Under the pieces are notes generated by a model, which worked only from the letters and a program-made list of their open reading frames with translations, was not told the DNA's origin and did not search any database. From Prochlorococcus sp. MIT 1307 (GTDB lineage: Bacteria; Cyanobacteriota; Cyanobacteriia; PCC-6307; Cyanobiaceae): 64,000 bases of DNA. Every line of letters begins with the position of its first letter. The first letter of the stretch is position 1. The translations under genes and the position numbers were made by a program. This document shows positions 57,771 through 61,048 of the stretch, piece after piece. The DNA is taken from positions 1,922,001 through 1,986,000 of the forward strand of contig NZ_CP139301.1 of NCBI RefSeq assembly GCF_034092395.1, in the 5' to 3' direction.

Positions 57771-57803
57771 ATTACAGACCACTTAAAAAAAGTATTTTTG
57801 GTA

Positions 57804-58466
57804 ATGAAGTCTTCTGACTCTAAATCACATCCTTTTTGGGACTTTTGGGGCCCAATTTTTCTTACAGTGTTTTTATACACAGGGATCCGAAATTATATCG
57901 CAGAGGCTAGATATATACCTTCTGGCTCAATGCTTCCAGAATTAGAAATTAATGATCGACTATTGATTGAAAAGCTTACTTTTTTCAGGCGCGCACCTAG
58001 AAGAGGTGAAATAGTTGTATTTAACTCGCCATACTCTTTTGATCCACATTTGCGCAGCAGGAAAGGTCCTTCAACTTTTAAATGTGCTTTAGTTACGTTC
58101 CCATTATTTGCATTGCTTACAGGGATTGGAGATCCTGCTTGTGATGCTTATATCAAGAGAGTTGTTGCTATAGGAGGTGATCAAGTTTTAATTAATTTGA
58201 AAGGAGAGGTTTTTCTTAATGGTCGAAAGACTGTAGAGCCATATGTCACAAATTTTTGTGATCAATTAACCAAAGCCTTTCCTAATTGCAAAACCCTAAA
58301 GGCAAGGGTTCCAATGGGACATGTTTTGGTTTTGGGAGATAATCGGGGTAATAGTTGGGATGGCCGCTATTGGCCTGGAGGACCTTTCTTGCCGGAGAGG
58401 GAAATCTTAGGAAGGGCAATATGGAGATTCTGGCCTCTTAACCGTTTTGATTCTCTTAGCCTCTGA
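57804..58466 (+). CDS. lepB: Signal peptidase I
   Basis: Cleaves signal peptides at the outer face of the membrane. From ATG at 57804 the protein is 220 residues. One N-terminal membrane helix (about 16-32) precedes the catalytic Ser42 (PSGSM) and catalytic Lys118 (IKRVVAIGGD). GDNRGNSWDGRYWP is the box-E motif. Between boxes C and D is an extra segment with a hydrophobic stretch (FKCALVTFPLFALLTGIGD), longer than in many homologues. It overlaps the convergent dihydroorotase-like gene by 11 bp. Confidence 0.93.
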   Translation: MKSSDSKSHPFWDFWGPIFLTVFLYTGIRNYIAEARYIPSGSMLPELEINDRLLIEKLTFFRRAPRRGEIVVFNSPYSFDPHLRSRKGPSTFKCALVTFPLFALLTGIGDPACDAYIKRVVAIGGDQVLINLKGEVFLNGRKTVEPYVTNFCDQLTKAFPNCKTLKARVPMGHVLVLGDNRGNSWDGRYWPGGPFLPEREILGRAIWRFWPLNRFDSLSL

Positions 58467-59712
58467 GACCACATTCCACTACTTTTCCGAGAATCTCTTC
58501 CCCTTGAAATGGCTCATTCGCACAAAATGGTGTTTTCTGGTGATCTAATTTATTTATCCATTTTTTATTTGGGTCAAATAATAACCAGCGCCGACTATTC
58601 ACCTGAAGCTGCTCTTCATCTAGATTGAGCATTCGTGAGGGACCGAAACTTAGAGCTTCCCATAGTTGCTCTATTTCCCATCCTGATTTTACAACTAGTT
58701 CTTGCCATAATGAAGGTAGAACCAGTTGAAATCCGCTTAGTCCTGGTGCCCTTTTATCTGAGGGGAGTTTGGTCTCTTCTTCATTGAGGGGAACTCCGTT
58801 AACGGCTACTGCTGTAATTGTTCTCTCAAGTAATCCCTTTATTAGAGCTTTTCGATCCTCTGGTCTACCAAGTGAAGGGACAACTCTCCATTCAAGCTCG
58901 TTGTGCGAAAGCGAACTAATATCTTTTATTAAGTGCCACCAGCACACACTAGACATAATCTTAGATTTACTGTCGGCAATTATTGATACCCCTTCTGAAG
59001 TTGATATGTTCATTAGTCGCATTGAGATTTTTGGATATTGTTTATGTAGTGCAAGCAATTGACCAAGAGGAATTGTTTCGCTCGCCAAGGGATCAGGTAG
59101 CCATCCTGCTCTTAATGCTTCCACTCCTTCTCTAACCAAACCATTGTCTTGTAGTTCAATATCTCTCGGGGCTAGCAGAACCGGATATTCGCGCATTTCT
59201 CCTAGTGATAGGCCTCGCTTTAGAAGTCCAACGGGAAGCATCTTGTCGTCTTCTGCTATACCAATAGCACCATTCTTTAGTAATTCAGCATGTGGAGCGA
59301 GCTCTGAGCCTTCACCACTTTTACTGAAGCTGCCCCAGAGGTGAATGATTACGTCACTATTAGGGTTGTCGAACCCTTGAAGTTGATTGGCTCGATCCCT
59401 CCATGATGGACTACGAGGCAGGAGAGCTAAATGCCCATATCCAGCATTGGCTGCTTTATGCCGAAGAGTTGTCAGTGTCTCACTACGACTATTAAAAGGT
59501 TCTTCTAGAATGGAATGTGGATCAACCAGACAAGGTGCAAGTAATTGGTTAGGTAAAGATTTTGCTATAGCACCATCTTGATTGCCTTGTTCTCGTGCTT
59601 TTTCTCCGAAAGCTTTTATTAGACCATTACTAATTAAAACTGCGTCTTTAGTTGATTTTTTATGAGATCCGTAAAGGACTTGAACTGGATCCAATAGATG
59701 TGATTCAGGCAT
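58456..59712 (-). CDS. Dihydroorotase-like amidohydrolase with degenerate metal site
   Basis: The protein is 418 residues from ATG at 59712 (a TTG at 59745 is in frame). Overall pattern is PyrC/AllB-like: LLAPCLVDPHSILEEPF where active enzymes have D-x-H-x-H, then ELAPHAELLKNGAIGIAEDD and the C-terminal SFGPSRMLNL. Here Asp64 and His66 are kept but residue 68 is Ile, so the metal-binding His pair is broken. It may be a structural partner, as in other inactive dihydroorotase homologues. It follows the histidine phosphatase gene at 4 bp. Confidence 0.78.
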   Translation of the reverse strand: MPESHLLDPVQVLYGSHKKSTKDAVLISNGLIKAFGEKAREQGNQDGAIAKSLPNQLLAPCLVDPHSILEEPFNSRSETLTTLRHKAANAGYGHLALLPRSPSWRDRANQLQGFDNPNSDVIIHLWGSFSKSGEGSELAPHAELLKNGAIGIAEDDKMLPVGLLKRGLSLGEMREYPVLLAPRDIELQDNGLVREGVEALRAGWLPDPLASETIPLGQLLALHKQYPKISMRLMNISTSEGVSIIADSKSKIMSSVCWWHLIKDISSLSHNELEWRVVPSLGRPEDRKALIKGLLERTITAVAVNGVPLNEEETKLPSDKRAPGLSGFQLVLPSLWQELVVKSGWEIEQLWEALSFGPSRMLNLDEEQLQVNSRRWLLFDPNKKWINKLDHQKTPFCANEPFQGEEILGKVVECGLRG

Positions 59713-59716
59713 GACT

Positions 59717-61048
59717 TTAAAGTGCTCCTGATGTTGTGCAGTCAAATACCCCGCCTAGATGAGATGTCAGATTGAGACAAGTAACGACATTAGGTTGAGT
59801 TGGTTCGGTTGGGATGTCGACTACGGTGATGGCACCATTGCCTTGCTTGATCATCCAAATATCTGCTGGGCTGAGTCCTAGCAATTTACAAAGAATAGTT
59901 TTGTTGACTGCATCATGGGCGACTACTAGGGCCGTTTGCGCGGAGGTAAGGCTTGAACAGATCTTTTCCCAGGAATTTTCTGCTCGAGCCCAAACGTCTT
60001 GGATAGTTTCTCCTTCTGGCATCTGGACCTTTTCAGGATGAGTTTTCCAGGTTTCAAGAAGTTCCGGCCATTTCATTCTGATTTCTGATTCGAGTTTCCC
60101 TTCCCAGAGTCCATGACCTATTTCGATGAGACCTTCTTGAAGCTCGATTTCTATACCAGGATGATGCTTAAGGATTGCTTGTGCTGTTTGCTGAGGCCTA
60201 GACATTGAACTACTAAAGGCTTTCTCTAAGCGCACCATGCTCAGAAATAAACCTGCTGCTGCTGCTTGTGCTTTGCCATTGTCATTAAGAGGAATGTCTA
60301 TTTGACCTTGGAATCGACCTTCAAGATTCCAATTTGTTTCTCCGTGACGAACAAGAATAACTCGCGCATAATTACTGTTTTTATGTAGAGTCGAGTTTAA
60401 ATGAACGGTATTATTTAAGCATTCAAGTTGTGCTTGATAGGGCTTAAATAAGCTTGGGCTTAAATTAAAAACAGATATGGATGCATTGTCTAATTTAAGT
60501 CTTCTAAATCCCTGCTTTGGCTGGCCTAATAACTGAAGAATAATACATCGCAAAATCGCATTATGTGCAACAATTAAAATTGTATCATTGCTTTCTAGTG
60601 GATGCTCTTTGATTAGTCTTCTTATGAAGTCTGCAGCTTGGCTTTTTAGTTCTTTAATTGGTTGAAACTCCTTGCCATTACTCGTTTTTAGAACTAGCTC
60701 TTCAGGATTAGTTTGCCATGTATCGTAGATCTCAGGAAAATTTTCTTTTACTTCGTCTGAGGTCATTCCACTCCATGTTCCAAGTTCTATTTCAAGTAGA
60801 CCTTGGTCAAAATTTGGCTTTGGCTTGCTTTTGAATTCTTGAAGTAAATTTCTTGTAGTGTCGGCTGCTCTTTGTAGAGGTGAGCTATATACAGCATTTA
60901 TGGGTGTATTGGATAAAACTTTCCCAGTTTTGATCGCTTGTTCTTTTCCTTCAGGAGTAAGAGTTGAAAGATCGTTGCGACCTTGAATGCGGCGTTCGAG
61001 GTTGAAGCTGCTCAAACCATGACGAACGAGTAAAAGGCGCAAAGTCAC
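59717..61048 (-). CDS. Tandem histidine phosphatase (phosphoglycerate-mutase-like, two domains)
   Basis: The protein is 443 residues made of two complete histidine-phosphatase domains. The first carries VRHGLSSFNLERRIQG (RHG near 9-11) and VAHNA; the second carries VRHGETNWNLEGRFQG near 235 and VAHDA. Each has a full catalytic set, with Ser in one and Glu in the other at the position after RHG. Co-factor-dependent phosphoglycerate mutase and phosphatases share this fold; the double form in picocyanobacteria is usually annotated as phosphoglycerate mutase, but the substrate is unproven. Start is GTG at 61048. Confidence 0.85.
   Translation of the reverse strand: MTLRLLLVRHGLSSFNLERRIQGRNDLSTLTPEGKEQAIKTGKVLSNTPINAVYSSPLQRAADTTRNLLQEFKSKPKPNFDQGLLEIELGTWSGMTSDEVKENFPEIYDTWQTNPEELVLKTSNGKEFQPIKELKSQAADFIRRLIKEHPLESNDTILIVAHNAILRCIILQLLGQPKQGFRRLKLDNASISVFNLSPSLFKPYQAQLECLNNTVHLNSTLHKNSNYARVILVRHGETNWNLEGRFQGQIDIPLNDNGKAQAAAAGLFLSMVRLEKAFSSSMSRPQQTAQAILKHHPGIEIELQEGLIEIGHGLWEGKLESEIRMKWPELLETWKTHPEKVQMPEGETIQDVWARAENSWEKICSSLTSAQTALVVAHDAVNKTILCKLLGLSPADIWMIKQGNGAITVVDIPTEPTQPNVVTCLNLTSHLGGVFDCTTSGAL

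Follow-up and report, generated by a model that had tools for sequence, protein, structure and literature searches.

A conserved non-catalytic dihydroorotase homologue of cyanobacteria, a candidate partner of aspartate transcarbamoylase

The 64,000-nucleotide stretch of DNA analysed here, hereafter the window, encodes a PRK07369-type pseudo-dihydroorotase (pDHO), for which the sequence evidence gives good support to a reading as a non-catalytic dihydroorotase homologue that has kept the scaffold and lost both the metal and the substrate sites. We regard it as fairly probable that pDHO is a PyrC'/PyrX-type non-catalytic partner of aspartate transcarbamoylase (ATCase, PyrB), stabilising the active trimer of the latter. 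pDHO would bind PyrB and would hold the trimer in its active form, by analogy with the inactive subunit of Pseudomonas and with the role proposed for that of Sinorhizobium meliloti, and dihydroorotate would be made by a separate enzyme, in the window genome the type II PyrC. Inactive dihydroorotase subunits as such are already known; nothing was met in the literature on the cyanobacterial family, on its being encoded apart from pyrB, on a second type of pocket or on the disappearance of the gene from one branch, and no paper on a cyanobacterial pseudo-dihydroorotase was among the literature matches listed, which covered few subscription papers.

Similarity to type I dihydroorotases extends over most of the length of pDHO, with matches to the structures 3gri (E-value 3.1e-23, query residues 52-409), 3mpg (3.1e-22) and 3d6n from Aquifex (3e-18). 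The best NCBIfam model was NF005614 'dihydroorotase' (PRK07369) with 265.2 bits, below its cut-off of 456, and Pfam returned no family for pDHO at E<=1. The start codon is ATG; an alternative TTG at position 59745 would give 11 amino acids more. An AlphaFold2 model built from a 7-row alignment (mean pLDDT 42.9, pTM 0.39) was discarded. It should be mentioned that 'dihydroorotase' equivalog models exceed their cut-offs on proteins devoid of the metal site, NF005614 on the orthologues L065 (541.2 bits) and L067 (677.6 bits) and NF006558 on L317; this label is a likely source of wrong annotation and, on orthologues without a metal site, would mislead pathway models.

The sequence-only reading had singled out D-P-H-S-I in place of D-x-H-x-H, and the alignment bore this out, the second His of the motif being Ile. 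The damage is nevertheless wider than this motif, as later metal His/Asp positions and substrate residues are gone too (Table 1). Compared with the S. aureus enzyme, pDHO retains H58 (as H66) and D150 (as D155), and the metal positions H60, H177, H230 and D303 are occupied by I68, A181, N235 and N305, which leaves two of the six ligands and falls short of the set found in active type I enzymes. Substrate binding depends on R62 (again in S. aureus numbering) and on the Asn residues of the PNT and MNPP motifs; in pDHO these positions are E70, R100 and V278, so that the Arg/Asn set of an active type I dihydroorotase is lacking, and H307 is replaced by L309. With metal ligands and substrate residues lost, the earlier view of the protein as a non-catalytic dihydroorotase homologue is well supported by sequence.

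Table 1. Features of pDHO and its immediate neighbours in the window
Feature	Position	Strand	Basis or remark
Pseudo-dihydroorotase (pDHO), PRK07369-type, 418 aa	58456..59712	-	ORF, profile and structure-homologue matches, alignment
D64-P-H-S-I68 where DxHxH expected	59509..59523	-	Codons counted from ATG at 59712
A181, position of beta-site His177 (S. aureus numbering)	59170..59172	-	
N235, position of beta-site His230 (S. aureus numbering)	59008..59010	-	
N305, position of catalytic/alpha-site Asp303 (S. aureus numbering)	58798..58800	-	
gpmB-like tandem histidine phosphatase, 443 aa	59717..61048	-	Directly upstream of pDHO, 4 nt gap
Signal peptidase I (lepB)	57798..58466	+	Convergent; overlaps pDHO end by 11 bp

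The DHO chain of the Aquifex aeolicus DHO-ATC complex (class A1), i.e. the homologue 3d6n above, offers a further point of comparison. In PMC3880350, H61, H63 and D153 are described as ligands of its alpha site, with D305 nearby, and H180 and H232 of the beta site as dispensable. The first His and the Asp aligned with Aquifex D153 are kept in pDHO, and the remaining positions hold Ile, Ala, Asn and Asn; the Aquifex chain is active, whereas the window protein is without equivalents of H63 and D305.

To place these losses in the family, 77 cyanobacterial orthologues were aligned, 68 from the 138 matching genomes and nine from the 16 genomes that keep the gene in g18, a low-GC, Prochlorococcus-like genus. 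From an earlier alignment, L042 and L043 (duplicates of L032 and L034), L036-L039 (of L007, L008, L010 and L011) and L003 (of L001) had been left out. All 77 proteins have at most three of the six metal ligands, four of them exactly three, and therefore the loss of ligands is not a matter of chance. H58 is kept in 57 orthologues, H60 in 13, H177 in none, H230 in one, D303 in 20 and Arg62 in none. Three tryptophans are close to invariant (Trp258 in 76, Trp336 and Trp351 in all 77), where a second type I family of these genomes, termed QxH and described below, has Pro, Leu and a variable residue. Based on the sequences, pDHO is a fixed, altered protein rather than a decaying one.

Two pocket types could be distinguished at positions 58/177/230/303. 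Outside the family of the window genome, 20 rows carry Tyr (18), Trp (19), Arg (20) and Asp (20); in picocyanobacteria, to which the window belongs, His-Ala-Asn-His/Asn is found in most of 48. Positions 230 and 303 swap together, the pairs being N-H in 34 proteins, N-N in 20, R-D in 20, N-Q in two and H-S in one. Such regular replacements could be expected of a protein that still catalyses something through a rebuilt site, and P. aeruginosa PyrC2 is reported (PMC2770081) to be active despite non-conserved zinc residues. We nonetheless consider continued catalysis very unlikely, because one orthologous family harbours two pocket chemistries, the H60, PNT and MNPP positions are variable, and no polar pocket set is common to all members.

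The gene was present in 138 of 149 relatives and in 106 of the 108 good genomes among them; this sample included just two genomes of g18, and these were the only good ones without it. Across the 149 relatives it is kept whichever active dihydroorotase a genome uses. Judging from this distribution, pDHO is inherited throughout cyanobacteria and its conservation appears to be ancient. Median dN/dS was 0.195 for pDHO (36 pairs among nine g18 copies), against 0.096 for PyrB and 0.135 for gpmB; it was not measurable in the window's own genus, in which the closest relatives are 71% identical. A functionless relic might be suspected from the clean loss of the gene in most of g18 and from the fast evolution of the copies remaining there (33.7-37.2% identity to the window protein), yet the open reading frame, a dN/dS well below 1 even in the g18 copies, retention across the class and the three tryptophans absent from the QxH family make a relic extremely improbable.

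It had been suggested that intact pyrC and pyrB should be sought elsewhere in the genome, and both were found in the single contig of 2,032,419 bases. An intact type II PyrC is encoded at G000:C1:487414-488448 (TIGR00856, 437.8 bits, above the cut-off), so that pDHO is not the sole dihydroorotase of its genome, the circumstance which would have implied its activity. The translation has the HLHL, GAK, IHGE, LEHIT and TDSAPH motifs, read against the E. coli dihydroorotase ligand set as given in PMC2770081. As in the PyrC'/PyrX class, a homologue without the metal site is therefore accompanied by a separate dihydroorotase that is predicted to be active.

Type II PyrC exceeded the cut-off in 94 of the 149 relatives. 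For comparison, a second type I protein was taken from other genomes, 20 sequences in all; one was another amidohydrolase and 19 (L082-L099, L101) belonged to the QxH type, which keeps four of the six ligands, H60, H177, H230 and D303 being intact and H58 and D150 replaced in all 19. The QxH protein of G100 was assigned to PRK07575 in NCBIfam (739.9 bits, above the cut-off). In genomes without type II PyrC, QxH proteins look like the only candidate for an active dihydroorotase. In G122 (L284), the QxH gene lies in two frames with stops in the match, owing to a sequencing error or a real break, and no type II PyrC above the cut-off was among the matches listed for that genome.

The neighbourhood of pDHO was inspected in 40 regions of about 17-20 kb, which had not been chosen for gpmB. 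Just past lepB, which itself stands convergent on the far side of pDHO in 30 regions, a QxH gene occurs in 12 of the 40 regions and a relic of one in another, a count that does not reflect frequency, as at least 12 regions were chosen for the proximity of pDHO and QxH. This arrangement would agree with pDHO assisting or regulating, without catalysis of its own, the active dihydroorotase instead of ATCase. We deem such a role quite unlikely, however, as pDHO is retained in genomes that have lost QxH and rely on the unrelated type II PyrC, both in the window genome and in G114. The latter carries, between lepB and the next gene, the QxH relic (L286 8450-8740) made up of residues 39-100 and 398-438 with the middle gone, beside a whole pDHO; it also has type II PyrC, which indicates that pDHO persists when one active enzyme is exchanged for another. 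Service to a neighbouring QxH enzyme, considered as a candidate role, was likewise weakened by the genomes without QxH that keep pDHO.

Support for the ATCase partnership comes in part from relatives outside cyanobacteria. A search of plasmid records with pDHO matched 25 records at 22-27% identity. Among them, the S. meliloti record CP090106 has a 'dihydroorotase' gene directly after pyrB, whose product scores 778.8 bits with PRK09059 and retains none of the six ligands; from its pyrB context it is probably the orthologue of smc01361. As stated in PMC5929573, disruption of smc01361, which adjoins pyrB, results in pyrimidine auxotrophy; the proposal made there is that its product, PyrX, is an inactive dihydroorotase which PyrB requires.

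A dihydroorotase tree of 43 rows was calculated, from which two wrong-frame ORFs (Nonomuraea and Methylobacterium) were excluded and to which a hydantoinase-like outgroup row was added. A branch supported at 99/99 separates all 31 pseudo-dihydroorotases (24 cyanobacterial, five alphaproteobacterial and two from Bacteroidetes) from the other 12 rows (six intact enzymes, five QxH proteins and the outgroup). Should the root lie among these 12 rows, the pseudoenzymes would be of one origin and, provided that it lies among intact enzymes, pDHO groups with S. meliloti-type PyrX; long branches and uneven composition were flagged in this tree, and Pseudomonas PyrC' was not among its rows. In the PyrB tree, cyanobacterial PyrB was not joined with PyrX-linked PyrB. 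Two further features of the dihydroorotase tree can be mentioned. The g18 rows cyH_G163 and cyH_G291 share a very long stem of 1.83 changes per column, with purifying selection within the group, and the alphaproteobacterial row of Azospirillum keeps three of six ligands.

pDHO thus resembles PyrX of the S. meliloti smc01361 type (PRK09059) in its type I family, its missing metal site, the separate active PyrC and its position on the same side of the 99/99 branch. It differs in that the alphaproteobacterial PyrX adjoins pyrB and in the residues which replace the ligands. The likeness to Pseudomonas PyrC' (there also called pDHO) of the class A2 ATCase, an inactive dihydroorotase homologue of about 45 kDa beside a separate active enzyme, is one of description (PMC7053772) and not of sequence, and from it we infer the cyanobacterial partnership. 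According to the same paper, P. aeruginosa ATCase chains on their own are inactive monomers, which the inactive pDHO dimer assembles into an active dodecamer, and pDHO is required for the active ATCase trimer. The pseudo-DHO domain of fungal CAD-like Ura2, an inactive dihydroorotase domain tied to ATCase, was again compared by description and not by sequence, and is part of a fused polypeptide. If the partnership of pDHO and PyrB is true, ATCase in cyanobacteria, including Prochlorococcus, is a two-protein enzyme. Labedan in 2004 reportedly sorted ATCases by quaternary structure, which may bear on pDHO.

The genomic position speaks less clearly for PyrB. Pseudomonas PyrC' is encoded with pyrB, and adjacency to pyrB is a usual, not a defining, trait of PyrC'/PyrX genes; in the window genome, pyrB (G000:C1:1028851-1029834) is unlinked, at about 0.95 Mb from the pDHO match (C1:1980459-1981712), which does not show this trait. 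The scaffold role for ATCase that had been proposed from sequence alone stays plausible, favoured by the grouping with PyrX and by the literature on PyrX and PyrC', and draws no help from gene linkage or from the mirror-tree results given below.

What does adjoin pDHO is gpmB, and this conserved neighbour is the main rival lead. With gaps of -100 to 600 allowed, 31 of the 40 regions have gpmB immediately upstream of pDHO in the same orientation; in three more the match ends overlap by 180, in one there is an intervening stretch, and in five gpmB was not found near pDHO. Together with the narrow gap in the window, this would befit a non-catalytic protein whose partner is not PyrB but the GpmB-like tandem phosphatase, with a role in the metabolism of serine or phosphoglycerate. 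We think this rather unlikely, as gpmB stays in place beside lepB, without rate change, in all 15 g18 genomes inspected that have lost pDHO, and a published gpmB-dihydroorotase complex was not met in the literature, in which it was not searched for by name.

The loss in g18 provides a natural contrast for the preferred reading, that of an ATCase partner. In a wider draw of the genus, pDHO was present in 16 of 151 genomes and in seven of 51 good ones. Genomes with the gene (keepers) have it between gpmB and lepB in ten cases out of ten, and in those without it (losers) lepB follows straight after gpmB (15/15): the loss is a clean single-gene deletion. Keepers probably correspond to the HLI clade, losers to HLII and kin; the pyrB stretches of two losers had 31-32% GC. 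PyrB persists in the losers (of 45 genomes from both groups combined, 41 gave a match above the cut-off), and so PyrB manages without pDHO in those lineages. A swap of PyrB for another class upon the loss of pDHO was rejected, since loser PyrB groups with keeper PyrB. Of 26 g18 genomes searched for type II PyrC, 21 had it, among them the keeper G163 (536955-537980); the five genomes without a match include two keepers, G158 and G291, perhaps because of assembly gaps in these two.

Several comparisons addressed whether PyrB changed along with this loss. For most genes around pyrB, keepers and losers form two separate branches, so that these comparisons rest on one event. Among 16 neighbouring genes (one more was skipped for too few sequences), PyrB had the highest density of fixed keeper/loser differences, 5.8 per 100 columns, followed by a short protein with 5.4. 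In the ratio of between- to within-group differences it ranked second with 3.36, the top value of 4.33 belonging to a protein that hardly varies and has a single fixed site. The distance to the respective protein of the window genome, taken as outgroup, was larger in losers than in keepers by 0.0385 for PyrB (95% CI 0.005-0.072), a modest excess and one of six tests at 95%, uncorrected. The corresponding values of the other five proteins, all with intervals across zero, were -0.0096 for gpmB, +0.0129 for PyrC II, +0.0037 for OTC, -0.0247 for MPG and -0.0092 for abi. Clade-wide changes were nearly even, with ten in losers to seven in keepers in one comparison and five to six in another.

At otherwise conserved PyrB sites, five changes were specific to losers (R61K, P116T, L150I, V249I and G299D) and three to keepers. 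The Arg before G299 is presumably the counterpart of E. coli R269. In E. coli, R269 is a trimer contact, as given in PMC7053772. The mirror-tree approach was applied to 21 genomes with all four proteins and gave a partial r of 0.493 for pDHO and PyrB (0.412 with 17 genomes). Equally high values for pDHO-lepB (0.520) and PyrB-gpmB (0.417-0.430) mean that it shows no specificity.

Tentatively, these data allow for a possible, though not the probable, history in which cyanobacteria have used a pseudo-dihydroorotase-dependent ATCase from before their divergence, and the low-GC Prochlorococcus branch (probably HLII and kin) freed its ATCase through PyrB changes such as R61K, P116T and G299D before losing the pDHO gene altogether, and so escaped naturally from its reliance on a pseudoenzyme. 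If the partnership holds, closely related genomes that differ in the presence of the partner would allow testing how an enzyme gains and drops the need for a dead relative, and the contrast of keepers and losers in g18 allows a direct test of whether loser PyrB is self-sufficient.

Minor observations concern the surroundings of related genes. Both Bacteroidetes pseudo-dihydroorotases (L041 4279-5553 and L321 2827-4107) lie ahead of DUF4199 and glycosyltransferase genes, an order annotated for L321 and similar in L041, and no pyrB was among the features listed around L321. One of them is carried by a Rufibacter tibetensis plasmid of 12.5 kb. In L005, pyrB (1483-2499) shares 4 bp with the end of the upstream ORF (842-1486), which we take to encode a 3-methyladenine DNA glycosylase, and a related ORF adjoins pyrB in genus g18.
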